Positions 3,597-17,425 of a DNA stretch of 37,084 nt are shown here, piece by piece. The stretch spans positions 1 to 37,084 of the forward strand of contig JARFRN010000031.1 in the NCBI GenBank assembly GCA_029287195.1, read 5' to 3'. Numbering within the stretch: the first letter of the stretch is position 1; the number at the start of each line of letters is the position of its first letter. Under the pieces are notes generated by a model, which saw nothing but the letters and a program-made list of their open reading frames with translations, ran no database searches and was not told the DNA's origin. The translations under genes and the position numbers were made by a program. The stretch comes from Acidimicrobiia bacterium. Its GTDB lineage: Bacteria > Actinomycetota > Acidimicrobiia > Spongiisociales > UBA5794.

Positions 3597-4429
3597 GGCG
3601 CCGATTCCTCCGCCCGGGCCATGGCGGCCGCACCCAACTCCTCAGACCGCCGGGCTGCCGCTCGCACTGCGGTCTCGAGCAGAGCGCGGAAACCTCCCTC
3701 TTCGAGCATGTGCATGGCCGCTGCGGTCGTGCCGCCCGGAGACGTCACTTCGGCTCGAAGCCGGAAGGCACTCTTGTCAGAGACCGACAACAAGGCACCG
3801 GCGCCACGCAGCGTCTGTATCACCAGCTTCTCGGCGGCATGGTGCGGGAGACCTTCGCGAATGGCGGCCTCCGTCAATGCTTCGGCAAGCAGGAAAACGT
3901 AGGCGGGTCCGGTACCGGATACCGCGGTTACCGCATCCAGCAGATCCTCAGAGAGCCGAATCGTCTCGCCGACGGCGGCCAAGACCATGTCGGCGAGCGC
4001 CAGCGCATCATCATCCGCATATCGCCCACCACAGTATGCAGTCATCCCCTCATCGACTGCCGCCGGGGTGTTGGGCATCGCTCGCACCACTGCAACATCT
4101 GGCAGTGCTTGCTCGAACACGCCGATCGGGACGCCGGCCGCCAGGCTGACGACGACTTGGCCATTCTCTACCGAAGCTTGTATTTGGTGGAGCAGGAAGT
4201 CGACATCTTTTGGCTTGACCGCAATGACGATGACGTCTTTGCCGGCGACGGCTGCGGCCGGATCCAGGCTGGCTTCTATCGCTGTGTGGCGTTCCACCTC
4301 GCGGGCCCGTTCTTCACGCCGGGCCACTAGAACCAGGTTGCCGGTTTCCCAGCCGGCCCGCAATAAGCCCTCGGCGAGGATCTCTCCCATCGAGCCGGCG
4401 CCGAGTATCGCAACTGTGGGATGACTCAT
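3593..4429 (-). CDS. proC: Pyrroline-5-carboxylate reductase
   Basis: MSHPTVAILGAGSMGEILAEGLLRAGW...VISLAAGVPI-type block...VVRAMPNTPAAVDEGMTAYCGG...DAVTAVSGTGPAYVFLLAEALTEAAIREGLP...VTSPGGTTAAAMHMLEEGGFRALLETAV. Start placed at 4429 (TATCAT box 7 nt upstream). Confidence 0.95.
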   Translation of the reverse strand: MSHPTVAILGAGSMGEILAEGLLRAGWETGNLVLVARREERAREVERHTAIEASLDPAAAVAGKDVIVIAVKPKDVDFLLHQIQASVENGQVVVSLAAGVPIGVFEQALPDVAVVRAMPNTPAAVDEGMTAYCGGRYADDDALALADMVLAAVGETIRLSEDLLDAVTAVSGTGPAYVFLLAEALTEAAIREGLPHHAAEKLVIQTLRGAGALLSVSDKSAFRLRAEVTSPGGTTAAAMHMLEEGGFRALLETAVRAAARRSEELGAAAMARAEESAP

Positions 4430-4519
4430 AGCGGAGATGATACGAGGGTCGGCGGCGAGCATCGAGTCCGCGCCCCTCTGTGGGGTGGGGATCGTCGTGC
4501 GGGCGGTTACGCTCACGGT

Positions 4520-5656
4520 ATGGACTACCCACAACGGTCCGAAGATCTGGAATCGACTCTGCTGTGGATTACAACCGGCTATCGCCTCTTTTCGGCTGTT
4601 TGGCTCTCGATTCTCGGCGTGGTGGTGGTTGCCGGCGAGTCCACGGAAGTAGAGCGTCCGGCGATCGTAACTGTGACCGTCGTCGGCGTCGTAGGCTGGG
4701 CAGTTCTGGCCACCGGAGCACGCATCAGGACACCTTCACTGGCCCGATCGTGGGGTTTCGTCGCAGTCGACCTGGCAATCGGAGCATGGACAGTGGTGGC
4801 CGGAACGGTCGCCGGCACGATTCAATTTGCGGGTGGATATCCGCTGGCTGGGGCGTTCGCCGCCATCTATGCCTTCAGCACCACGGGCGGCATCATCGGC
4901 GCCGTCGTCCTGACAGCAGCCGGCCTGGTGCCGCTACTTGGACAGGGGCAGGGCCTGTCCCAGGAGGTTGCCAACGCTATCGCTTTCCTCTTCTCTGTGG
5001 GAGCTGCCACCGGTGTCGCTGCGACTTTGCGCACCTCGGATCGGCGCCGGGTCGAGGCTGAGGCGGCTCTGGCGACCGAGCGCGCAGAGCGAGCCCGTGC
5101 CGAGGAACACGCAGAGGTCGCTACCCACCTCCATGATTCGGTCCTGCAGACCCTGGCGCTGATCCAGCGCAATCCAGCCGCAACCTCCGATATCAAGGGA
5201 TTGGCGCGGCACCAGGAACGCGAGTTGCGCCGCTGGCTGTTTCCGGAGCAAGCGAGATCGACTAAGTCTGCCGGTGGTTTCCGGGAGGCATTGCTGGCCG
5301 CTTGCGCCGAGGCCGAGGATGTTGGCTCCACGAAGGTCGAGGCCGTGGTGGTAGGCGACACCGGAGCACCGACCGAGGCGATCGTCAACGCAGCAACCGA
5401 AGCCATTCGCAATGCCCTGGCCCATTCCGGAGCCGAATTGATCTCGGTCTATGGAGAAGCCGGGGAAGATGAGGTGCTCATCTTCGTCAAAGATCGCGGG
5501 TCGGGCTTTGATCCTGCGGCGGTCGATCCATCCCGGCACGGTGTCCGCGAATCTATCGTTGGACGTATGGATAGGAGCGGCGGCTCGGCCGAGATAATCT
5601 CATCTCCGGGAACCGGCACTGAGATCCGCCTCCGTCTCCCGATCGGGGAATCATGA
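4520..5656 (+). CDS. MacS-like membrane sensor histidine kinase
   Basis: N-terminal TM helices, HDSVLQTLALIQRNPAATSDIKGLARHQERELRRWLFPE dimerisation region and C-terminal HATPase (ATEAIRNALAHSGAELISVYGE...VKDRGSGFDP). Start at ATG 4520 (TACGCT box 6 nt upstream). Confidence 0.87.
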   Translation: MDYPQRSEDLESTLLWITTGYRLFSAVWLSILGVVVVAGESTEVERPAIVTVTVVGVVGWAVLATGARIRTPSLARSWGFVAVDLAIGAWTVVAGTVAGTIQFAGGYPLAGAFAAIYAFSTTGGIIGAVVLTAAGLVPLLGQGQGLSQEVANAIAFLFSVGAATGVAATLRTSDRRRVEAEAALATERAERARAEEHAEVATHLHDSVLQTLALIQRNPAATSDIKGLARHQERELRRWLFPEQARSTKSAGGFREALLAACAEAEDVGSTKVEAVVVGDTGAPTEAIVNAATEAIRNALAHSGAELISVYGEAGEDEVLIFVKDRGSGFDPAAVDPSRHGVRESIVGRMDRSGGSAEIISSPGTGTEIRLRLPIGES

Positions 5657-6285
5657 CCACCGTCTTCATCGTCGACGACCACGACCTATTTCGCGCAGGG
5701 GTTCGCGCTGAGCTACCTGCAGATCTAGAGGTGATCGGCGATGCCTCTCAAGTAGAAGCAGCAATCGAGTTGATTCGCGAACGCCGACCAGACTTGGTGC
5801 TGGTAGATGTCCACATGCCGGACGGTGGCGGCCGGGCCGTCATCGAGGGGGTACACGACACGCATCCCGACATCCGCTTCCTGGCAATCTCCGCCTCGGA
5901 TGCGCCCGAGGATGTCGTCGCTACGGTGCGGGCCGGGGCGCGGGGCTACGTGACAAAGACGGTGTCTCCCCCAGACCTGGCTGCCGCCATTCGGCGGGTG
6001 ATCGAAGGCGACGCAGTGTTCTCACCGAAGCTCGCCGGGTTTGTGCTCGATGCGTTTGCCTCGATGGAGGTGAGAGACCTCGACCCTGATCTCGACAAGC
6101 TGACGAAGCGAGAGCGCGAAGTGCTGCAGCACATTGCTCGGGGCTACACGTATCGGGAGGTCGGCGAGCAGCTGTTCATCTCCACGAAGACGGTCGAGAA
6201 CCACATGTCCGCCGTTTTACGCAAGTTGCAGCTATCCAACCGGCGCGAGCTGACCAAGTGGGCCCAGGATCGGGACCTGATCTGA
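5653..6285 (+). CDS. NarL/FixJ (LuxR-type) response regulator
   Basis: Receiver domain MTTVFIVDDHDLFRAGVRAEL...DLVLVDVHMPDGGG and HTH LTKREREVLQHIARGYTYREVGEQLFISTKTVENHMSAVLRKL; ATGA overlap with the kinase. Confidence 0.93.
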   Translation: MTTVFIVDDHDLFRAGVRAELPADLEVIGDASQVEAAIELIRERRPDLVLVDVHMPDGGGRAVIEGVHDTHPDIRFLAISASDAPEDVVATVRAGARGYVTKTVSPPDLAAAIRRVIEGDAVFSPKLAGFVLDAFASMEVRDLDPDLDKLTKREREVLQHIARGYTYREVGEQLFISTKTVENHMSAVLRKLQLSNRRELTKWAQDRDLI

Positions 6286-6291
6286 ATGCCG

Positions 6292-7773
6292 TTATCCGAC
6301 AAGGTCGACGTCGACGTAACGACCTTGCATGATCCTGACGAGGTTCTCCAGGGATCCGGCCTCGAAGTATCCGGAGTGGCCGGAAGTTCCTTCGGTGCTG
6401 AAACGAACGGCCCCAAAGTCGTCATCGGCGGGATTGGCGCCGTGCCACAACTCTTGGGGACCGTTGCACACGCCGACCGACGACCACGGCGGAATGCATG
6501 CCGCCGTCACCCACCAGGGCGGCGACTCGACTGACACCGAGGCTGCGACGATCGGATCACCCGCAGCTAGTCCCACCCAGACCCGGCCCCCCGGCCTCAA
6601 CCGGGCGTCGGTTGCACCGTCCAGACCCGTGCCGGGGCTACCGACAAAGACGAGATCATCGGCTGCGAGCCCCTCCGCAGCCGCGAGTCCTGCCACCAGC
6701 GACCCGTAGCTGTGGGCGACAACCGTCACTTGGGTTTGAGCTCGCGGGTCGATTCCTTCGACGAAACGCTGCAGCGCCGGAGCGCCCGACTCTGCTGCAC
6801 CACGCAGCCCGGCATCGATGCCGTCCGGTGTGTCGTAGCCCAACCAAGCGATGGTGGCGATGCCGGGGCCCATCGCTGCCGCGGCCTCGTAGAGGGCGGC
6901 CGCATTGGATCGGAATCCCCCGTCGGCTGCGGAGCTGAAGTTGGTCTTGTCGTTGCCGATCCCGGGCACGACGACGGCGATGCGATCGGCCCGGTCGAGG
7001 TCTCCGAAAACCTCGACCAGCCTTCCGTCCCCGCGGGGATCGAACAGAAGAATTTGGCGCCCTTCGTCGAGCCATCTCCGGTACTCGATCACCTGGCGCC
7101 GCAGTCGTTCAATTGCCGCATCCGCGTCGGCCCGGCGGCGCAACGCGGGAACGAGCCGGCCCGGATCGATCCAGTCCACCCAGCTCAGCGGCTTCACCTC
7201 GGGGAGCCGGCTCAACTCCGCCTCCAACTCGCAGAGGTGGCGATGAATGAGGACTCGGTTGGCTCGGTAGCGGAGCTGTGGCGGTATTCCGTCGAGACGC
7301 CCAACAATGCCGGGGTACCGGTCCGCCAGATCTGTGCCGACCGATGGCGCCAGCCGGGAGAATGCTGCCTCGACCTGACGTGGCGACATGCCCAGGAAGG
7401 CCACGATGTGCGGCGGCCCGTTCCACTCGCTAAAAGACTCGCTCCGGCTGGCCCGGTCGAACACGGCATATGTAGCGAAATGGGTCAGGCCGTACAGGTA
7501 GCGGTGTTGGCCCACATAGCCGTGGGTGGTCACTTCTTGAGCCGTCTGGATTGCCCCGGCCCTCCTCTCGAGGGATTCTGCTGCCTCCGCTACCGCTTCG
7601 GCCGCTAGGTGCAGATGACGGGCGATCTCTGCGGCGGAAGCTTCGCCGCACCGGGCGGCCAATCCGGTAACGACGACGGCGACGCGGCGTATGTGTCGTG
7701 AGCTCTCCCGAGAAAGGCGGGCCAGGTTCCCGAGACCTTCCGGGTACGCTCCGACAAATCCGGCAGCGGTCAC
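6292..7773 (-). CDS. Alpha/beta hydrolase, DUF1023-like, with N-terminal helical domain (T7SS-associated)
   Basis: 493 aa; IAVVVPGIGNDKTNFSSAADGG...IATIAWLGYDTPDGI...VTVVAHSYGSLVAGLAA...DDLVFVGSPGTG; ATGA overlap with the upstream ATPase gene. Confidence 0.8.
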   Translation of the reverse strand: MTAAGFVGAYPEGLGNLARLSRESSRHIRRVAVVVTGLAARCGEASAAEIARHLHLAAEAVAEAAESLERRAGAIQTAQEVTTHGYVGQHRYLYGLTHFATYAVFDRASRSESFSEWNGPPHIVAFLGMSPRQVEAAFSRLAPSVGTDLADRYPGIVGRLDGIPPQLRYRANRVLIHRHLCELEAELSRLPEVKPLSWVDWIDPGRLVPALRRRADADAAIERLRRQVIEYRRWLDEGRQILLFDPRGDGRLVEVFGDLDRADRIAVVVPGIGNDKTNFSSAADGGFRSNAAALYEAAAAMGPGIATIAWLGYDTPDGIDAGLRGAAESGAPALQRFVEGIDPRAQTQVTVVAHSYGSLVAGLAAAEGLAADDLVFVGSPGTGLDGATDARLRPGGRVWVGLAAGDPIVAASVSVESPPWWVTAACIPPWSSVGVCNGPQELWHGANPADDDFGAVRFSTEGTSGHSGYFEAGSLENLVRIMQGRYVDVDLVG

Positions 7774-10700
7774 GGTCTGCCCAGCTGAACCAGCTCCACC
7801 TGTCCGTCAGCGAGCAGGTAGCCCCGGCCCACAGGGAAGTGTTGCGGCCCGCGTCGGGGAAGCTCGGTATGCCAGAGATCGCCGTCGGTAGCGAGATTGG
7901 GTCGCAGAGCACAGCCTATGCGCGACCGGCGCAGGTCTTGGGTCCAGTGTCCGTACATACGGCGAATCGCGTCGGCAGACCCGGCCGCCACGATCCGGAG
8001 CGCCCGCTGCCGCCTATTCACCAGCTCGCTGAGCTGCGGGGAGGCTGCTACGAGCTCGGCATCATCGACGAGGATCAATTGCGCACCGGATTCATCTAAT
8101 TCTGCGAGCGACCCGAGCGTGATCGTGCGGTCGACGGCGGCAGCCCCGCCCAGCGGGGATCGACGCGGAGTCATCGCTGTGACGATCAGATCTGGTCGGG
8201 CAGCCTTGGCGACGGCAGCAATGGTGGCGAGGGCGCTGCTCTTGCCAGAACGCGCCGGCCCGGTGATCAAGGCGTGCTCGCCGTCCCGCAGGACCCAACC
8301 CGACGGCAGGAGCAACGTGTCCCCGATCCCAAGAGGTAGAAACCACTCGTCGTCGGTGATCCTGCCGACCCCCACGACCTCGGCCGCACACACCTCCTGA
8401 GGAAGGACATCGATTTGCCACGGGGCCAATTGCGGATCGCCCCATCGATTCGCCTCCACTGCTGCCTCGAGACCATCGCGGTGGGAAAGCATCACCTGGA
8501 TCTCCCGCCCACTCCCGGATTCAAAGGCCCTGCCCGGAAGAATCGGCGGGTCGACGGCAGGAATCCCCAGCTCGGTGTAGTCGTATCGGTCGGCGAGACG
8601 GAACCCGATCTTCGATCCGACCAGCGATCCGATTCGGATGGGAATGTCACCCGGACGTTTTGCGCTGATGATTGTGTAGATGCCGACCCCGGGACCATCG
8701 GCAACGATCCGGGCAATGAGGTTGCGTGCCGTCATGTCACCGGGTTCGTCGTAGGCGTCATTGAACCCACCGAAGTTGTCCAATACCACAACGACGGTGG
8801 GGACGGGCGAGCCGGGCTCGGGACCGTGGCCGACCGTATCGCGCCTTCGTTGCAACTCTTCGGAAAGCCGCCGCAGCAGGCGGAGCTGCCGTTCGCCCTC
8901 GTGTACCCCGACAACCGCACCAACATGAGGCAACCGGCTCAGCGGACCGAGCAACTGGTCGTCGAAATCGAGCACGTAGATGTGGAGCCGATTGGGGTCA
9001 TAGTCGTGCGCCAGCCCTGTGACCAAAGATGCAACAGCCGTGGTCGTCCCACTGCCTGGCAGACCGTAGAGCAGCAGGTTGCCGCAGGACGGCGACCACA
9101 CTGCACCTACTTGTCGCTGCCGATGGGGTTCATCACCGAGGGCAAACACCGTACCCTCTCCGTCGGGATGGGGAATCTCGGACGGAAACAACCGGAAGGG
9201 CAGTGGTTCCGGCCACGGTAGGCGCGGTGGCGGGAGCTGCATAGTATCTGCGACGCGCACCGCGGCGTCAACGATCCTCTCCAGATCGGTCGGCCCGTCG
9301 CCCGAACCGGCTGGAGCAACCGGCTGCGGTTGCTCGTATGCGAATACAAATGGTCCAATCAGCCAGCGAGTCGTGTCGGCGGCAAGCGAGCGGTCGGTAG
9401 CGATTGCTGCCTGAAATGCCACGACATCCTGCGGTCCCAGCCGGGCCATGCCCCGACCCGGCTGATTGCGACCAATCTCGGCCGCCGCCGCGGAGCCGAT
9501 CACATCGACAGAGTCGATGCCGTCTTGCATCCGCAGAGCAATACGTAAGTTGGTATTGGCCTTGATGCTCTCCGAGATGACACCGCTGGGTCGTTGGGTG
9601 GCCAGCACCAGGTGGACGCCCAAACTGCGTCCCCGCTGGGCGATGCCGACCAGCGCTTCGATGAAGTCGGGAATCTCTTTCGCCAGCGCGGCGAACTCGT
9701 CAATGACGACCAGCAAGCGCGGCAGGGGATCGTCGGTATCCCCAAACTCCGCGATGTCCGTCACGGAAGCCTCCCGCAGCCGCTTCTCCCGATAACGCAG
9801 CTCGGCGTCGAGACAGGACAGCGCTCTAATCGCGAGGTGGTCGTCTAGATCGGTAACGACCCCAACGGTGTGCGGAAGTGCTGCGCATGCATCGAAGGCG
9901 CTGCCTCCCTTGTAGTCGATCAGAACGAAGTTCAGCAACGTCGGGCTGCACTCCACCGCCAGGCCTGCGACCAGGGTTCGGAGGAGCTCGGACTTACCGG
10001 CTCCGGTGGTACCACCGAGCAGGGCGTGCGGACCATCGGCGATCAGATCGACAATCACTCGTCCCCTATCGGAATGCCCGATCGGTACGGCCGGACTAAC
10101 CGGGCGCCGTTCCCAACGTCTCTGGATCGACCTGTCGAGATCCCGCTCGAGTCCCAGCAGCGCCGGCAGGTAGGCAACGCTGGGCAAAGCTGCTCCAAGA
10201 GCTTGCGCCTCGGGATCTTTGAGCCGTGCCAGTGCCCGCGCTGCCGAGCGGGCCCGGGCGGCACTGAGTAGCCACGGGCTCACCCCGGACTCTCGACCGT
10301 CCGGAAACCGCACCCGGCACGCCCCTTTGTCGAATACCACAACCGTTGTCGACAACGACGGGAGATCAGCGGTCTGCGTCGCCAGAGCGAGACCGGCGAT
10401 CGAACGCTTCGCCCCGTTGCGGAGCGCCGTTCGGATTTCTGGTCGGGCCCCTGTCACGAGATTGGGCACGTCCACGACAATGAGATGATGCGGGGTGACC
10501 GGCTCGTTCCCATCGCCGCCGGGGAGATGGGTGGCTACGGAAGCAACCTCGTTGTCGGTTGCCGCCAACCGACGACGCGGCCCACCGTCGATCGTCACAT
10601 GCGGGAGCCATTTCGCCCAATCCCATTCGGCCGCGTTTTCCGTCACAATGGTGATCGCTAGATCGGCGGGCCCGTGATGCACCGCCGCCTGAAGCACCAC

Positions 10701-11564
10701 CTGACGAGCCAGCCCGAGGATTTGGCGACGTGCCCCGGCGACGCCCGTCGTGGCCCCTGCATCAAGCCGAATCTGCAACGGTACGCCATGCAGTTTGCCT
10801 AAGCGCTGCAGAATCGCACCCGACCCCACATCGAGCTGCCCCCGGAGATGCGGCTGCCATGGAATACACCCGGTACCGATCGGCAACTCCATGAAGTCGG
10901 CGTGGTCGGCTCGCCGCTCCCAAAGACGCGAATCCCTGTCGGCCACCCTTCGCAAGAGTTCTCGAGGAGGGGTCACTGCAGCGAGCGCTGCCTCGATGGC
11001 TCCACGATGGGCGGAAGCAACTTGCGCTCCAAACCGCTCGAGGGCAGCACCGTAGACCTGTCGTGTCTCTCGCCGCTCCCGCCCGGCGCGCCGCCGATCC
11101 TCGAACCTGTTTGCCAGCAGCATGACCGGCGAGAAGAGGGCAAACATCGCCATGCGCGGATGGATAAGCACGGCCATGGTAAGGCCGAGAAAGATCGGCA
11201 CTACGAGCGCGGCCCAGCCGAAGCGGGCGACCCTGGGAGGTTCTTGTGGGGCATGCGGAACGGTCAAGGGTTGTGCGGCAAGCCCGATCACCCGTCGCGG
11301 AGGACGGTTGAAGATTCCCTTCGAGACCTGCCCTGTGAAGCCTGCACCGACCACCGCTGGAGCATCGAACTCGATCACAGATCCGTCACCGAGACCCGAC
11401 TCCGCGAGCGGCATCGTGCGACCAACGGCGCAACCGTCGACTGCGATGCTCGCTGCGTCGCTGAGGTCCCACGAATCGGCGAGATCACCGAAGGTCTTGT
11501 CCCTTCCGGCGAGGTCGCAGTTGACCTCGTATTCGGTGTCGCCCAGGCGAACCACCAGCTGCAT
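7770..11564 (-). CDS. EccC/EssC-like FtsK/SpoIIIE multi-ATPase of a WXG100 (type VII-like) secretion system
   Basis: 1264 aa; N-terminal ubiquitin-like/FHA-like region, TM pair (FGWAALVVPIFLGLTMAVLIHPRMAMFALFSPVMLLANRFEDRR), three P-loop positions: GGTTGAGKSELL, GLPGSGTTTAV, GPARSGKSSAL; Walker B LLVVIDEFAAL. Confidence 0.88.
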   Translation of the reverse strand: MQLVVRLGDTEYEVNCDLAGRDKTFGDLADSWDLSDAASIAVDGCAVGRTMPLAESGLGDGSVIEFDAPAVVGAGFTGQVSKGIFNRPPRRVIGLAAQPLTVPHAPQEPPRVARFGWAALVVPIFLGLTMAVLIHPRMAMFALFSPVMLLANRFEDRRRAGRERRETRQVYGAALERFGAQVASAHRGAIEAALAAVTPPRELLRRVADRDSRLWERRADHADFMELPIGTGCIPWQPHLRGQLDVGSGAILQRLGKLHGVPLQIRLDAGATTGVAGARRQILGLARQVVLQAAVHHGPADLAITIVTENAAEWDWAKWLPHVTIDGGPRRRLAATDNEVASVATHLPGGDGNEPVTPHHLIVVDVPNLVTGARPEIRTALRNGAKRSIAGLALATQTADLPSLSTTVVVFDKGACRVRFPDGRESGVSPWLLSAARARSAARALARLKDPEAQALGAALPSVAYLPALLGLERDLDRSIQRRWERRPVSPAVPIGHSDRGRVIVDLIADGPHALLGGTTGAGKSELLRTLVAGLAVECSPTLLNFVLIDYKGGSAFDACAALPHTVGVVTDLDDHLAIRALSCLDAELRYREKRLREASVTDIAEFGDTDDPLPRLLVVIDEFAALAKEIPDFIEALVGIAQRGRSLGVHLVLATQRPSGVISESIKANTNLRIALRMQDGIDSVDVIGSAAAAEIGRNQPGRGMARLGPQDVVAFQAAIATDRSLAADTTRWLIGPFVFAYEQPQPVAPAGSGDGPTDLERIVDAAVRVADTMQLPPPRLPWPEPLPFRLFPSEIPHPDGEGTVFALGDEPHRQRQVGAVWSPSCGNLLLYGLPGSGTTTAVASLVTGLAHDYDPNRLHIYVLDFDDQLLGPLSRLPHVGAVVGVHEGERQLRLLRRLSEELQRRRDTVGHGPEPGSPVPTVVVVLDNFGGFNDAYDEPGDMTARNLIARIVADGPGVGIYTIISAKRPGDIPIRIGSLVGSKIGFRLADRYDYTELGIPAVDPPILPGRAFESGSGREIQVMLSHRDGLEAAVEANRWGDPQLAPWQIDVLPQEVCAAEVVGVGRITDDEWFLPLGIGDTLLLPSGWVLRDGEHALITGPARSGKSSALATIAAVAKAARPDLIVTAMTPRRSPLGGAAAVDRTITLGSLAELDESGAQLILVDDAELVAASPQLSELVNRRQRALRIVAAGSADAIRRMYGHWTQDLRRSRIGCALRPNLATDGDLWHTELPRRGPQHFPVGRGYLLADGQVELVQLGRP

Positions 11565-11935
11565 CAGATCACACCGCTCTGAGTTCCGATGGGAGATCCG
11601 CCGGAGAAGCCGGCCGCTGCTGCCTCAGCTGCGGAGGCTTGCGCCCGCAGGGCCGCGGCTTCACTCCGCAGCCGGCGGGCTCGTCCGACCAGCTCGTGTG
11701 CGATCCGATCGAGCCGATCTGCCTGCTGATCCAGCACCCTTCCCCGCCTCCGGGTGTTCTGTTCGAACTCGGTAGCCGCCGGCCCCATCCACACTTGCCT
11801 CGACAGGACAATGAGCGGTTCGAGCACACCGCGCAGCGCCGCCGCCTGGATACGGAGATGCTCCGCATCTGCACCAAGGGAGGCGGCGTCGGCGACATTG
11901 CGGTCGGCCAGCCCGCGGAGCTCTGCCGGCGTCAT
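11564..11935 (-). CDS. WXG100-like helical protein
   Basis: 123 aa, all-helical composition with central VWMGPAATEFEQN (WxG); TGATG coupling to the ATPase start. Confidence 0.7.
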   Translation of the reverse strand: MTPAELRGLADRNVADAASLGADAEHLRIQAAALRGVLEPLIVLSRQVWMGPAATEFEQNTRRRGRVLDQQADRLDRIAHELVGRARRLRSEAAALRAQASAAEAAAAGFSGGSPIGTQSGVI

Positions 11936-11955
11936 GTCACGATCAACCCACGGAG

Positions 11956-12228
11956 CTAGCGCGTTGCCATCTCGATGTTGTCGCGATACTTCGCCACTGC
12001 GATCCCTGCCTGCACCAAGGCCTCACGCAGGTTGCGCAGCGCCGGCGCAAACTCTTGCTCCCAAGCTGACCGGAACTTGTCGGCCCCCGGCCCTTCCCAG
12101 GCGGTTGCGCCGGGGGCCACCTTGTTCGTGAGCGTCGTCTCGAGGCCCTGTACCTCACCCGCCTTGCTATCGAACATCGACCGCAGCTGATCCAGATCCG
12201 CAAGATTCGCACCAAACATCCCTGCCAT
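11956..12228 (-). CDS. WXG100 family protein
   Basis: 90 aa MAGMFGANLADLDQLRSMFDSKAGEVQGLETTLTNKVAPGATAWEGPGADKFRSAWEQEFAPALRNLREALVQAGIAVAKYRDNIEMATR; central WEG; SD AAAGGA upstream. Confidence 0.87.
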   Translation of the reverse strand: MAGMFGANLADLDQLRSMFDSKAGEVQGLETTLTNKVAPGATAWEGPGADKFRSAWEQEFAPALRNLREALVQAGIAVAKYRDNIEMATR

Positions 12229-12299
12229 GTCGCTTCCTTTCGCTTCTCGATTTCGTGGTTTAGACTCGACCCTGCAGACCATATAACGATATTTAACAA

Positions 12300-12329
12300 T
12301 TGACAATAAGGTTTAAAAGCGTATAGAGT
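12300..12329 (+). promoter_or_regulatory. Candidate sigma70-type promoter for the LysM/TcpC-like/EspG-like operon
   Basis: Consensus TTGACA (12300-12305) followed by overlapping -10 candidates TATAGA (12322-12327) and TAGAGT (12324-12329), in an AT-rich divergent intergenic region. Confidence 0.65.
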
Positions 12330-12335
12330 CGCGAC

Positions 12336-13115
12336 ATGACGGAGAAGTCGGTCGGCAGGTTGATCACCCTTCTGGCGGCTAATGCGTCGCTCACGCTGGG
12401 ATTCCACCTACTCGGGTCGTATCCGGTATTCGCCGCCGAGTGGTCGCTGACCTGGCTCGACCAAGCGGACCCCGAAGTCGCCGTCGCTGCGTTGCTCCGG
12501 GTGATTGGTCTGATCCTCTGCTACTGGGTGTTGATTACAACTACGATCTATGCGCTGTCGAGAAGCCGCGGCCGGGTGCCGAGGACGATCCGATGGATGA
12601 CGATTCCCGCGATCCGCTACATCGTCGATCGCGCTCTTGCGACAACGCTGCTGATCTCAGCACTGGCCGTACCGTCCCATCCCTTGGCCGCAGCCGAGGA
12701 CCCCGAACCGGGGATCGTCCTCGAGATCCACGGGGACCGCATCCCCGTGCCGCACCTCCGGCCGGAACCGGTCGCCCCGGGCGCTACCCCAGCCGACCCG
12801 ACACCCGGCCCCCACGCGGCAGCAAGTCCGATACCACTGTTACTCGCACCCCCGGCAGCTGCGCCGGCTGCGGTCCTTCCCGTCGCTGCGCTACCAGGTG
12901 AAGAAAACTACACGGTCGCTCCCGGTGACAGCCTGTGGCTGATCGCCGAGACACAGGTCCAGGCTGCAACGGGAGACATACCGACCGAGCAAATGATTGC
13001 GACGTACTGGCGGGAGCTGATCGACATCAACATCGCCGGCCTGCGTTCACGTAACCCCAACCTGATCTACGCCGGCGAGCTCTTGACGTTGCCGAAACTC
13101 GAGGTGCAACCGTGA
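12336..13115 (+). CDS. Multi-TM protein with Pro/Ala-rich linker and C-terminal LysM domain
   Basis: 259 aa; three hydrophobic segments, Pro-rich stretch, then ENYTVAPGDSLWLIAETQVQ...YWRELIDINIAGLRSRNPNLIYAGELLTLP. Confidence 0.78.
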   Translation: MTEKSVGRLITLLAANASLTLGFHLLGSYPVFAAEWSLTWLDQADPEVAVAALLRVIGLILCYWVLITTTIYALSRSRGRVPRTIRWMTIPAIRYIVDRALATTLLISALAVPSHPLAAAEDPEPGIVLEIHGDRIPVPHLRPEPVAPGATPADPTPGPHAAASPIPLLLAPPAAAPAAVLPVAALPGEENYTVAPGDSLWLIAETQVQAATGDIPTEQMIATYWRELIDINIAGLRSRNPNLIYAGELLTLPKLEVQP

Positions 13116-14014
13116 CTATGGCGGACATGCTGGGAGCTCCGATCTGTGACCCACCGGACCCGATCGCGCCGACTTCCGATCCCTGCCCGCTACCGGCCCG
13201 GGACACTCGACCTGAGGTTGCAAACCCAACGAGGCGTCACCTCGTTCGGCTTTCCTTGGTCGTTGCGACCGCTCTCTGCGTCGGAGTAGCGGTCGGCACC
13301 TACGCGATCCCCCACAGGACGGAACTCGCCCCAAGGCCAACCGCCGCAGCGGCCAACGAGGTGCCGGCGGGGGTCGCCGGATTCGCCGAGCTATTCGTCG
13401 CCACCCACTTGTCCGCCATCGTCGCCGCGGAACACCGAGCTGCGCTCTACCCGAATGGTGGTGCGCCCCCAGATCCCAGCGGCCTGTGGGTCAACCGGGC
13501 GGCGACAACTGCGGCCGTAGCCGTCGATGAGAACGTTTGGCGGGTGACGGTGGCGGCGGAGGTCTTGGAGAAGGTCGACGACACGTATGAACCAGCCGGG
13601 ATCCAGTACTACACAGTCATCGTTGCCCAGACCGACGCACAGCCTATGGCCTTGTCCGCTCCCAGTCGTACCCCGATTCCCGAGGAACCGACGCGGACGA
13701 AGACTGCTCCGCGCTACACCGGAGCGGTGCCCCCAGATCAGGAAACAGCCGTTGTCGACTTCCTGACCGCATATCTCACCGGAAACGGCGAAGTCGCCAG
13801 GTATGTCGCCCCGACTGCCAGGATTGCCCTGTTCTCGGCTCCGCCTTACGTGTCCGCCGAGATCGTGAGCATTGGCGCCGACTCGCTGGGGCGGATTCGG
13901 GCACAGCTGACCGCAGTTTCTGCGAGCGGTGCAACTCCAAGACTCGAGTACACGCTCGAGATGACCTATGAGAGCGGCGTCTGGGAAGTCCTCGCAATGG
14001 CCCCGTCGACATGA
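13112..14014 (+). CDS. Membrane-anchored TcpC/VirB8-like (NTF2-fold) protein
   Basis: GTG start, GTGA overlap. One N-terminal TM (LVRLSLVVATALCVGVAVGTYAI), C-terminal DFLTAYLTGNGEVARYVAPTARIALFSAPPYVSAEIVSIG resembling conjugative TcpC domains. Confidence 0.5.
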   Translation: MTMADMLGAPICDPPDPIAPTSDPCPLPARDTRPEVANPTRRHLVRLSLVVATALCVGVAVGTYAIPHRTELAPRPTAAAANEVPAGVAGFAELFVATHLSAIVAAEHRAALYPNGGAPPDPSGLWVNRAATTAAVAVDENVWRVTVAAEVLEKVDDTYEPAGIQYYTVIVAQTDAQPMALSAPSRTPIPEEPTRTKTAPRYTGAVPPDQETAVVDFLTAYLTGNGEVARYVAPTARIALFSAPPYVSAEIVSIGADSLGRIRAQLTAVSASGATPRLEYTLEMTYESGVWEVLAMAPST

Positions 14015-14763
14015 ACGATCCCGGCCGACGCAGCGCGATCGACCATAGGCGGCGCTCGTTCTCCGTACCGAAGCGCCTGATGCCGGCCATACTGGCGCTT
14101 CACGCCGGCGAGCAGTCGCATTCTGCCGCAACGATCGCCGAACTGGAATCCGTTGACATCCTGGTCGACGGGGAACTCGACCCTTTGGTGGCGACCCTCA
14201 TGACGGTGATGACCGGCCCGAGGATGGTGGTGGCGGTCGAGGCGGCAGGAGTGAGAGCGCAGCGAATGGCAACTATTTGGGAGTCCGGGCGCCGCGCCGT
14301 GCTCGGTACTACCGCCGATCGGGATCAGTTCGACCTTCTCCAGATCGAACCAGAGCTGCTCCCCTTCCATCTCGCCCAGGTCACCGATTTGACTCCCCGA
14401 CCACAACCTCCTTTCAAGGGTGCGATTACGGTGCCGAAGGCGACGCTGCACCGTGTCGAAGACGTAATTGCTCGGGACCAAAGAGCTGCCGAGCGCGAGT
14501 TGCGAGCCGCAGGCCTCGTCTATCCGTGGTCCGATTGGCTGCTCATCGCCCTGGCGCATCGTCGGGCCCTGTGGACGATCGAAGCGATTTGGCTCGCCGG
14601 CCGTACCAAGCGAGCGGAGCAAATGACGGTGCTGGATGCCGGATCGGTCGGCTACTGGACCGTCAAAGAGAGTTCCTGCCGGGACACAGTCACGCTCCGT
14701 GTCAGCGACTTCGATCAAGTGCTACGCCGCTGCAGCGCGCTGCTTCCGGCTACGGCGCGGTAG
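14011..14763 (+). CDS. EspG-like (ESX secretion-associated) protein
   Basis: 250 aa; LDPLVATLMTVMTGPRMVVAVEAAGVRAQRMATIWESGRRAVLGTTADRDQFDLLQIEPELLPFHLAQVTDLTPRP has the layout of actinobacterial EspG-family proteins; ATGA overlap with preceding gene. Confidence 0.5.
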   Translation: MNDPGRRSAIDHRRRSFSVPKRLMPAILALHAGEQSHSAATIAELESVDILVDGELDPLVATLMTVMTGPRMVVAVEAAGVRAQRMATIWESGRRAVLGTTADRDQFDLLQIEPELLPFHLAQVTDLTPRPQPPFKGAITVPKATLHRVEDVIARDQRAAERELRAAGLVYPWSDWLLIALAHRRALWTIEAIWLAGRTKRAEQMTVLDAGSVGYWTVKESSCRDTVTLRVSDFDQVLRRCSALLPATAR

Positions 14764-14764
14764 A

Positions 14765-16492
14765 TCACACGTCCGCAGCTACCAGGGCATCCACGATCGT
14801 GGCGTACTGGACGTCTTCCTCGGGCCGGTAACCCGCCTCCACATGGAGGCCCAGGAGCAGTGCGGCAGCAGCAGCCAGCTCATCGGCGTGAACGTCCTCC
14901 CCATTCTCCTCCGCGGATTGCAGCAGAAGTGCAATCTGATGCAGACGGAGCAGTCGTTCGAGCTGGCCCCTGAAGTGCAGCGCACCAAAACCAGGATCCT
15001 CGATACAACGTGCTACAAGCCCGGCCAGCTCCTCGAGCTGCGATTGCGCCCGATCAGCCAACAGACCCAGGTCCTGTTCGGCGACGCCTTTGAGAATGGT
15101 GGCGGTGCGGTCGACGACCGTTCCCGCCAGGCCGAGCCGGCCCATGTCGCGCAACACTTGCGCCGTCAACACATTGTGGGTTCCTTCCCACTGCTCGTAT
15201 ACGACCGCGTCGCGCAGGAGACGGGGCAGCACGCTGAAGTCTTCGATCGCACCGTTGCCGCCCAGGATCTCAATAGCCTGACGAACGACTCCGGTGGCGG
15301 CCAGGGAGCAACCCAGCTTGTTGGCGTTCACGAGATACCGATGGAGACCGAAATCTGCGGACGAGACCTCGCCTGCACCCATCGCAGCCAGATCGACGGC
15401 TTCGTCCAACGCGGTCAGTTCCCAGGTGCTGTGGAGCGCCGCCAGCCATTCCGCCTTGATTTGCGCCAATTGCAGCCGCACGACCGGGAAGTCGGCGATT
15501 CGCTTTCCAAAGGCGTGACGCACGGCCGCGTAGTTGGCCGCTTCCAGGTATGCCCGGCGCATGATTCCGAGGTCCCCGATGGCGTTGAGCCAGCGGCTCG
15601 TGTTGAGCATCGCCGTGACCATGATCTTGAAGCCGGCCCCGAGATCACCAACCAGGTGGGCCTCGGCTGCTGTGAAGTCGATCTCGCCCGACGCCATCGA
15701 GGTGGTACCGAGTTTGTCCTTGAGGCGACGGACGGAGAAGCCGTTCGGTTCTCCCGCAACCATCCGCGGCACGAGAAAGCAAGCCAGCCCGGCGGTACCC
15801 CCAGCGGCGCCGGCCGGCCGAGCCAGCAGGAGGAATTGGTCGGCGTCGGCTACCGAGCAGAACCACTTCTCGCCGTCGATCTGGTAGGCAGCACCCCTCT
15901 CGGTGGCGGTGGCGGCAATGGCCCCGACATCACTGCCGCCCTGAACCTCGGTCAGGAACTGCGCACCTCGTATTGCGGTGTCGTAGTCGCTCGCCGTCAG
16001 GTGGGGAACGAACTGTGCCGCCAGATCGGGAGAGTGGCGGCGGAGAACTCGCACCATGCCGGTGGTACAAGTAGCGGCACACATGTGGCCCATTTCTCCC
16101 TCGAACGACGCCAGATAGAACAGATTGGCCTGCTCAAATGATGCGCCGGCAGCTGCCGCGTGCTGCAGCAGCCCGGAGGCCCAGACATAGCGGCCGGCTT
16201 CGTGGTACGCCTCATCGAAAACGATCCGCTCCTGTGGGTTGCCGGCACCGTCGTACTTGATCAACTCCGGGGGCCGAGACTGGTAGCCGGCTACGGCGGC
16301 ACCGAGGGGACCCGCCACCACCTTTCCAAAGTCGCCGGCACTGCGACGCACCTCTGCCAGCCGTCTTGGCTCTAGATAGCGCGCATTGACCAAGTCGAGG
16401 TGGCCCTCGGTGTCGTAGGGATTGCCGGGATAGCGGCTCCGCCACTCAGCGAGGGCACGACGGGCGTCGCCGTAAGCGGACGGCGTGCTCAT
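14765..16492 (-). CDS. Acyl-CoA dehydrogenase family protein
   Basis: MSTPSAYGDARRALAEWRSRYPGNPYDTEG...AIRGAQFLTEVQGGSDVGAIAATATERG...EKWFCSVADADQFLLLARP...GTTSMASGEIDFTAAEAHLVGD...ILGGNGAIEDFSVLPRLLRDAVVYEQWEGTHNVLTAQVLRDM. Confidence 0.93.
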   Translation of the reverse strand: MSTPSAYGDARRALAEWRSRYPGNPYDTEGHLDLVNARYLEPRRLAEVRRSAGDFGKVVAGPLGAAVAGYQSRPPELIKYDGAGNPQERIVFDEAYHEAGRYVWASGLLQHAAAAGASFEQANLFYLASFEGEMGHMCAATCTTGMVRVLRRHSPDLAAQFVPHLTASDYDTAIRGAQFLTEVQGGSDVGAIAATATERGAAYQIDGEKWFCSVADADQFLLLARPAGAAGGTAGLACFLVPRMVAGEPNGFSVRRLKDKLGTTSMASGEIDFTAAEAHLVGDLGAGFKIMVTAMLNTSRWLNAIGDLGIMRRAYLEAANYAAVRHAFGKRIADFPVVRLQLAQIKAEWLAALHSTWELTALDEAVDLAAMGAGEVSSADFGLHRYLVNANKLGCSLAATGVVRQAIEILGGNGAIEDFSVLPRLLRDAVVYEQWEGTHNVLTAQVLRDMGRLGLAGTVVDRTATILKGVAEQDLGLLADRAQSQLEELAGLVARCIEDPGFGALHFRGQLERLLRLHQIALLLQSAEENGEDVHADELAAAAALLLGLHVEAGYRPEEDVQYATIVDALVAADV

Positions 16493-16550
16493 AGCTCCAT
16501 TGTCGCATCCCGATGACGTGTCTGGGGGCACGAACCGTAAGATTGTCGGC

Positions 16551-16646
16551 ATGAAGAAACTCATTCTCGTTGCCATCGCAGCCATGGGCGGGGTCATGGT
16601 CTACAAGCTTCTCAATGAGGAGTATCAACCACCGCCGGTCAAGTGA
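16551..16646 (+). CDS. 31-aa single-TM small protein, DLW-39-like N-terminus
   Basis: MKKLILVAIAAMGGVMVYKLLNEEYQPPPVK; TAAGAT box 7 nt upstream of ATG; stop overlaps the GTG of the next gene (GTGA). Absent from the ORF track because of its length. Confidence 0.65.
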   Translation: MKKLILVAIAAMGGVMVYKLLNEEYQPPPVK

Positions 16647-17425
16647 CCGCAATCGCCACTCCCCACGGCGGGCTCTGGGTGCGCTCCTACGGCAACCCGC
16701 CTGCCGAGGTGGTCGGTTTGCACGGCTTCACGCTGCACGGTGGAATGTTCGCCGAGCTGGCCGAACTGACGAATGCAACATTCGCCGCACCCGATCTGCC
16801 GGGACACGGTCGCTCCACAATCGAGCCCATTACGATGTCGACCGCAGTCACAGCTGTAGCGAGCCTGTTGGCCGCATCGCCCGAGCCACCGATTCTGATG
16901 GGCTACTCGCAGGGCGGGCGAGTCGGGCTGCAGACCGCGCTGGCACATCCGACGCTGTTGAGAGCTCTGGTATTGGTTTCCGCATCGGCGGGTTTGCCGG
17001 AACCCGACCGCAGGGTGCGCCGCGTTGCCGACAACGCGCTCGCCGATCGAATCGAGAGTATCGGCATTGAACGATTCATCAACGAATGGCTGGCGAACCC
17101 GATGACGTCTACCCGGACCGTCGCAGCAGCAGACCGGGAGACGGACAGAGCACGGCGGTTGGAGAACAGTGCAGCCGGGTTGGCGGCGGCATTGCGCGGG
17201 ATAGGACAGGCCGCAGTTACGGATTCGTCTGCTGCGCTCGCATCGCTCCCGACGCCGGTGGTATGCGTGGCCGGAGGGCGGGACGAGATGTACACAGCAG
17301 CCGCATGGCGCATGGCGCGTGCGCGGAGTGAACGGCCCGTCATCGTTGCTCGTGCCGGCCACAACGTAATACTCGAGGCCCCAGAAGCGGTGGCGGACGT
17401 GATCAACGGATTGCTGAGTCTCTAG
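16643..17425 (+). CDS. Alpha/beta hydrolase, MenH-like
   Basis: VVGLHGFTLHGGMFAELAELTNATFAAPDLPGHGRS...PILMGYSQGGRVGLQTALAHPTLLRALVLVSASAGL...VAGGRDEMY...ARAGHNVILEAPEAV; GTG start. Confidence 0.8.
   Translation: MTAIATPHGGLWVRSYGNPPAEVVGLHGFTLHGGMFAELAELTNATFAAPDLPGHGRSTIEPITMSTAVTAVASLLAASPEPPILMGYSQGGRVGLQTALAHPTLLRALVLVSASAGLPEPDRRVRRVADNALADRIESIGIERFINEWLANPMTSTRTVAAADRETDRARRLENSAAGLAAALRGIGQAAVTDSSAALASLPTPVVCVAGGRDEMYTAAAWRMARARSERPVIVARAGHNVILEAPEAVADVINGLLSL

Follow-up and report, generated by a model that had tools for sequence, protein, structure and literature searches.

A putative new type VII secretion subtype in Acidimicrobiia: an EccC/EssC-type motor beside LysM, TcpC-like and EspG-like proteins

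Genes and promoters of the locus

We describe a compact seven-gene locus at positions 6292 to 14763 of a 37,084-nucleotide stretch of DNA (the window) from an Acidimicrobiia bacterium (Actinomycetota; Acidimicrobiia; Spongiisociales; UBA5794; contig JARFRN010000031.1 of assembly GCA_029287195.1). It is organized as two divergent operons. The minus-strand operon encodes, in this order, a WXG100 protein, a second WXG100-like protein, an ATPase of the EccC/EssC type, and a DUF1023 hydrolase, and the plus-strand operon encodes a LysM protein, a TcpC-like protein, and an EspG-like protein. Judged from sequence, the locus is well supported as a member of the type VII secretion system (T7SS) family belonging to an undescribed subtype, in which proteins related to type IV secretion system (T4SS) components would accompany a T7SS motor. 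All seven open reading frames are present where an earlier reading of the DNA (the original prediction) had placed them:

6292..7773, minus strand: DUF1023 (Abhydrolase_8) alpha/beta hydrolase with a helical N-terminal region, candidate exported effector (PF06259, E 4.7e-39)
7770..11564, minus strand: EccC/EssC-type motor ATPase (profile and PDB matches, motor trees)
11564..11935, minus strand: second WXG100-like protein, VWxGPAA hairpin (PF06013, E 0.02; TIGR03930, E 9e-4; family alignment)
11956..12228, minus strand: WXG100 protein, start ATG 12228 (PF06013, E 4.4e-7, scored on a longer reading)
12229..12335, no strand: divergent promoter region common to both operons (two sigma70-like promoters)
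12336..13115, plus strand: LysM membrane protein, two to three hydrophobic segments, LysM domain C-terminal (PF01476, E 2.1e-5; family alignment)
13112..14014, plus strand: TcpC/VirB8-type protein, one transmembrane (TM) helix and two NTF2-like domains (AlphaFold2, Foldseek, PF12642 in homologs)
14011..14763, plus strand: EspG-fold chaperone (AlphaFold2, Foldseek, PF14011 in homologs)

The overlaps between start and stop codons, read at the ATPase/DUF1023 junction and among the three plus-strand genes, are confirmed at 4 bp each. The divergent gap of 107 bp (12229-12335) is likewise correct given the WXG100 start at ATG 12228, which homologs back; a longer reading of that gene from TTG 12306 finds no support among them. 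Within the gap lies one sigma70-like promoter per direction, TTGACA-18-TAGAGT at 12300-12329 (plus) and TTGTCA-17-TATGGT at 12306-12278 (minus), that is, two observed against 0.1 expected. This divergent promoter region is kept within the genus.

The motor, its companions, and the components searched for

The EssC and EccC models cover nearly the entire length of the ATPase (TIGR03928, 453 bits; TIGR03924, 366 bits; TIGR03925, 265 bits), all with scores under the equivalog cut-offs, which is consistent with a separate motor clade. Its best PDB matches are EccC of T. curvata and YukB. The protein consists of an N-terminus that looks ubiquitin-like (about residues 1-70; its profile matches ubiquitin-like ISG15 chains, E 7e-4), two TM helices, and FtsK-type nucleotide-binding domains with P-loops near residues 518, 833, and 1102. 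The earlier description as a three-P-loop FtsK ATPase is right as to number, with the qualification that the second loop deviates (GLPGSGTTT, with Thr in place of Lys); relatives show no variation in the first P-loop or in Walker B. Longer relatives (loci and genomes are designated by L and G numbers) carry after this N-terminus an added region that, in L040, matches an FHA-type model (E 0.002).

Motor trees (FastTree on 126 motors, IQ-TREE on 52) give three groups, namely EssC of Bacillota (support 100), EccC of ESX systems (100), and a large actinobacterial group containing the window motor (99, Shimodaira-Hasegawa-like approximate likelihood ratio test). Both methods place the window motor outside the EccC clade (support 99-100). 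L231 falls in the ESX EccC group and scores 1160 bits against T. curvata EccC (4nh0). As these trees have it, the window motor is a member of a third, actinobacterial clade that is neither mycobacterial EccC nor Bacillota EssC, and a wide actinobacterial group of T7SS motors, distinct from both, thereby comes to light.

Further members of the third clade (L140-L219) are spread over Actinomycetota, among them Streptomyces, Microbacterium, and Nonomuraea, and tblastn mostly finds no EccB, EccD, or MycP within about 8 kb of these motors. At L169, kinase, PP2C, and FHA genes adjoin the motor. Proteins with RHS repeats do so at L144 (13400-18337) and L141 (11966-16633); the RHS toxin of L144 carries WXG100 and T7SS_signal domains, and the L141 motor is among the closest relatives of the window motor outside the class.

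The first of the two small proteins matches the WXG100 family (PF06013) above the gathering score (E 4e-7), and the second matches it weakly (E 0.02). A WXG100 protein next to the motor is kept in relatives. The proposed EspG-like and TcpC-like identities were both borne out by AlphaFold2 and Foldseek, and by Pfam via homologs; since the window proteins themselves fall under their Pfam models, identity here means fold plus homologs. For the EspG-like protein, the AlphaFold2 model has a predicted local distance difference test (pLDDT) of 90 and a predicted template modeling score (pTM) of 0.85, the first 18 Foldseek matches are all EspG5, EspG3, or EspG1 (E to 2e-12), and 8 of 10 homologs match Pfam EspG (PF14011; best E 9.9e-11). 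The TcpC-like model, built on a 15-row alignment, reaches pLDDT 80; its top Foldseek match is TcpC (3ub1, 'Ntf2 like protein involved in plasmid conjugation', E 2e-9), followed by the VirB8-like OrfG, and 8 of 15 homologs match the Pfam TpcC model (PF12642; best 1.5e-8). In the DUF1023 hydrolase, the HSYGS motif and a downstream His are invariant in nine homologs. The LysM membrane protein should bind peptidoglycan.

Profile searches of 60 genomes (the home genome and 59 relatives; 41 of the 60 have a completeness of 90% or more) found EccB, EccD (TIGR03920, PF08817), and YukD above cut-off in none, while the positive controls found YukD and YukC in B. subtilis and EccB in 7 of 120 genomes of the phylum. 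Among the 17 genomes bearing the locus, none has a MycP above cut-off (only generic subtilases below it) or an EssB/YukC above cut-off, and VirB4 is absent from 16, the exception being G038; as a control for the latter search, two T4SS-bearing genomes match at their TcpC operons. The claim that no partner other than the EccC/EssC motor is recognizable therefore stands for EccB, EccD, MycP, and EssB/YukC, above cut-off in profile searches, and no EccB, EccD, or MycP above cut-off that would complete an ESX system was found elsewhere in the genome. Relaxase and VirD4 coupling proteins were not noticed in the neighborhoods examined, no genome-wide search having been aimed at them. Neither a kinase nor an Ig-like TsdI is among the window locus proteins, and the unassigned neighbors in relatives do not include a kinase. 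At the locus, then, TcpC/VirB8 and LysM envelope proteins stand in the place of EccB/D/E/MycP or EssA/EssB/EsaA. Two other candidate explanations were rejected: a complete T4SS supplying TcpC, as there is no VirB4 except in G038, and anti-phage defense, for which PADLOC matched the motor solely to FtsK/HerA-type ATPases and left the other proteins without a match.

Conservation and kinship with type IV secretion

At E <= 1e-50, a motor match is present in 37 of the 149 class genomes sampled. Neighborhoods of relatives were annotated with profiles built from the window families; because gene calls misread some deviant-codon loci (e.g., L121, L129, L236), statements on neighborhoods rest on profile or tblastn matches. 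Seventeen loci were counted, in which both the motor and its upstream side are covered (window, L031-L044, L048, L049). Divergent from the WXG100-WXG100-motor genes, LysM is present in 16 of these and TcpC in 15, so that the plus-strand genes are indeed syntenic with the ATPase in relatives. The five loci examined from the same genus all share the gene order, and it persists across the order at protein identities of 30-76%, which is far beyond chance. The outer neighbors, on the other hand, vary by family (prs and DUF3107; lysA-hom-thrC), so that the conserved core amounts to more than a shared chromosome order.

EspG and DUF1023 are restricted to the family of the window: 10 loci carry EspG (window, L031-L039), in nine of them it is accompanied by DUF1023, and DUF1023 was not found in EspG-less loci whose motor downstream side was covered. 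The idea that LysM, TcpC-like, and EspG-like proteins always occur together did not hold, with EspG in one family, LysM alone in another, and none of the three in a third. L040 has a gene encoding 740 aa between its TcpC and LysM genes.

Outside the order, TcpC homologs are found in 10 of 247 genomes of the phylum. In the loci sampled there, a VirB4 homolog lies beside TcpC in 10 of 10, most also having TcpE, VirB6, and an M23 peptidase, and a member of the LysM family adjoins TcpC in 5 of 10, as well as in G393, often directly preceding it. L123, for example, has Pfam matches to TcpC (PF12642), TcpE (PF12648), and AAA_10. The most fitting reading of LysM and TcpC is thus that of an envelope pair of T4SS type, found in this order beside a T7SS motor. 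The same LysM family is also present in clusters with T2SSE/T2SSF proteins (Tad-type pili), which makes LysM alone a poor phylum-wide marker. At L131 (8479-10310), LysM and TcpC are adjacent, with neither a T7 motor nor VirB4 within 17 kb.

In the TcpC tree, one origin of the T7-linked rows is not rejected (approximately unbiased test, p-AU 0.36). For LysM, the test rejects one common origin across all T7 loci (p-AU 0.0007), probably on account of L086, whose LysM groups with the other and Tad LysM rows and may represent a separate, second recruitment. At L086 (5427-6988), which is from another family of the class, the LysM gene is transcribed away from those of two WXG100 proteins and of a motor.

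Readings of the locus

Like the mycobacterial ESX systems (T7SSa), the locus has an EccC-family motor with two TM helices, a WXG100 pair, and an EspG-fold chaperone. It differs in that no EccB, EccD, or MycP was found, the motor belongs to a separate clade and itself appears to bear the kind of ubiquitin-like domain that T7SSa has on EccD, and LysM and TcpC are present. With T7SSb of Bacillota (EssA/EssB/EssC/EsaA/EsaB) it shares an EssC-type motor, WXG100, perhaps a ubiquitin-like domain, and, in relatives, an FHA-like N-terminal part of the motor, whereas EssB/YukC and a free YukD are not found here and the motor lies outside the EssC clade. Garrett et al. 2024 (PMC11217815) defined T7SSc to T7SSj, of which T7SSd is the Actinomycetota one. 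These also combine a motor (TsxC) and WXG100 with a different partner set; T7SSc, T7SSh, and T7SSi have EspG-like proteins, as here, and several of the motors carry FHA. However, no kinase, PPM phosphatase, vWA protein, or Ig-like TsdI was found at the window locus, which sets it apart from T7SSd with its kinase TsdD and large Ig-like TsdI as well, and no subtype from T7SSa to T7SSj is described there with LysM, TcpC, or VirB8. In the literature searched, which did not extend to subscription papers and preprints, no paper joins type VII secretion with Acidimicrobiia.

On the T4SS side, Tcp-type systems (TcpC, TcpE, VirB4, VirB6; L123, L138, L258) have the same adjacent LysM and TcpC/VirB8 in the same order and matched by the same profiles, but here 16 of 17 genomes lack VirB4, the locus shows neither TcpE nor VirB6, and an EccC/EssC motor is present instead. 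Mycobacterial conjugative plasmids carry tcpC, virB4, and virD4-like genes near T7SS loci (PMC8190616) and so resemble the window in having a TcpC-like gene near a T7SS; they combine full ESX cores with VirB4, VirD4, and relaxase, whereas the present locus is compact and chromosomal. TraF of pIP501, a T4SS homolog of EssB/YukC (PMC13037476), is an independent case of parts common to both secretion types, with a T7SS-type protein in a T4SS there and T4SS-type proteins beside a T7SS motor here. The locus would add a second line of evidence for component exchange between T4SS and T7SS. The undescribed T7SS-like architecture put forward in the original prediction is thus supported, although that account had taken in neither the T4SS kinship of LysM and TcpC nor the published T7SSc-T7SSj.

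As a whole explanation, we propose a chromosomal, undescribed T7SS subtype of Acidimicrobiia with a LysM/TcpC scaffold and EspG-guided cargo, to which we assign a probability of roughly 0.6. Linkage, fold, and co-occurrence suggest that LysM and TcpC form the envelope scaffold of a T7SS and that EspG serves the DUF1023 protein; LysM and TcpC may physically replace EccB/D/E. A narrower version is tentative, and we place it a little short of even odds: a T4SS/T7SS chimera whose third-lineage motor exports WXG-fold proteins via an envelope scaffold in which VirB8/TcpC forms a ring and LysM the wall anchor, parts also used by conjugation machines, with the hydrolase as EspG-guided cargo. In the main proposal, EspG would shield the helical hairpin of a WXG-fold substrate, the best candidates being the N-terminus of the DUF1023 hydrolase or a WXG100 dimer, and bring it to the motor, which would push the folded substrate across the membrane. 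TcpC, with its two NTF2-like domains outside the membrane, could form a ring or trimer around the motor exit and, with the wall-held LysM protein, the scaffold that carries substrates outward. The WXG100 proteins, as a pair, and the hydrolase would be the likely cargo, with a possible role in interbacterial competition.

T7SS subtypes have in common only the motor, WXG100, and, mostly, a ubiquitin-like part, and the passage of their substrates through the cell wall is still to be explained. With a VirB8-type protein and a peptidoglycan binder as its extra parts, the present subtype suggests a function for the variable parts that can be tested, namely scaffold and wall passage.

Several observations weigh against this proposal. 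One family has LysM and the motor but no TcpC (L048, L049), LysM is missing at L041, and another family (L045-L047) lacks both LysM and TcpC, the motor and two WXG100-like proteins being present there; neither protein is thus universally required by this motor lineage. The link between EspG and DUF1023 comes from essentially one clade. Compared as profiles, the EspG-like family and two EspG candidates from ESX loci give 3%, which is not significant, so that the EspG case rests on fold and PF14011, and the motor N-terminus matches EsaB/YukD weakly (probability 5%). The TcpC and LysM trees leave the direction of exchange unsettled. The home genome is a fragmented assembly, 83% complete; absence in profile searches is compatible with very diverged EccB/D/E; and EccE, not found in window-type loci by tblastn with one EccE query, was not searched for genome-wide, nor were EssA and EsaA.

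The exceptions at L045-L047, together with motors of the wider clade that lack LysM and TcpC, also fit a motor that acts alone or with unidentified partners, the LysM/TcpC/EspG operon having a separate envelope or conjugation-derived function and sharing only the divergent promoter region. The opposite directions of the two operons and the LysM-family proteins of Tad-type clusters agree with such a separation. We nonetheless consider it unlikely, as the adjacency is maintained over several families despite differing outer neighbors, EspG, of a T7SS-specific chaperone family, shares the operon with LysM and TcpC, and in 16 of 17 genomes there is no VirB4 for TcpC to serve. That same absence argues against conjugation-like DNA transfer by a joint apparatus of T7SS motor and VirB8-type protein, comparable to that of mycobacterial conjugative plasmids (PMC8190616). 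The kinship of TcpC with VirB8 and the co-occurrence of TcpC and EccB on one contig of G225 speak for DNA transfer, but EspG and WXG100 point to protein cargo and the surroundings are chromosomal housekeeping genes (proC/proline dehydrogenase-like by reading of the window; prs; lysA-hom-thrC), so that we regard it as improbable.

The incompleteness of the home assembly, the T7SSa-type character of EspG, and the abundance of subtilases in locus-bearing genomes would suit an ordinary ESX system (T7SSa) whose EccB/D/E/MycP genes lie elsewhere or were missed. With no EccB, EccD, or YukD above cut-off in any of the 60 genomes, no mycosin above cut-off, and a motor outside the EccC clade, this appears very improbable. 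Hardest of all to credit is decay, with the locus as what is left of a mobile T4SS/T7SS element: LysM and TcpC do have relatives in T4SS operons, but frames are intact at 30-76% identity over many genera, there is conservation of motifs and of gene overlaps, and members of a family share their flanking genes, all of which contradicts decay.

Beyond these genes, a histidine kinase and a LuxR-type response regulator (4421-6285) adjoin the locus, the stop codon of the regulator lying 6 bp from that of DUF1023; the pair is present beside the locus in all five same-genus loci and is a possible regulator of it. Extra single-TM proteins of unassigned family occur within the plus-strand operon at L038 (4872-5996), L039 (3249-4517), and L040 (12377-14599). 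At L046, a locus with neither LysM nor TcpC, a 2156-aa surface-type protein with DUF11, SdrD_B, and cadherin-like repeats lies beside the motor (10484-16954).

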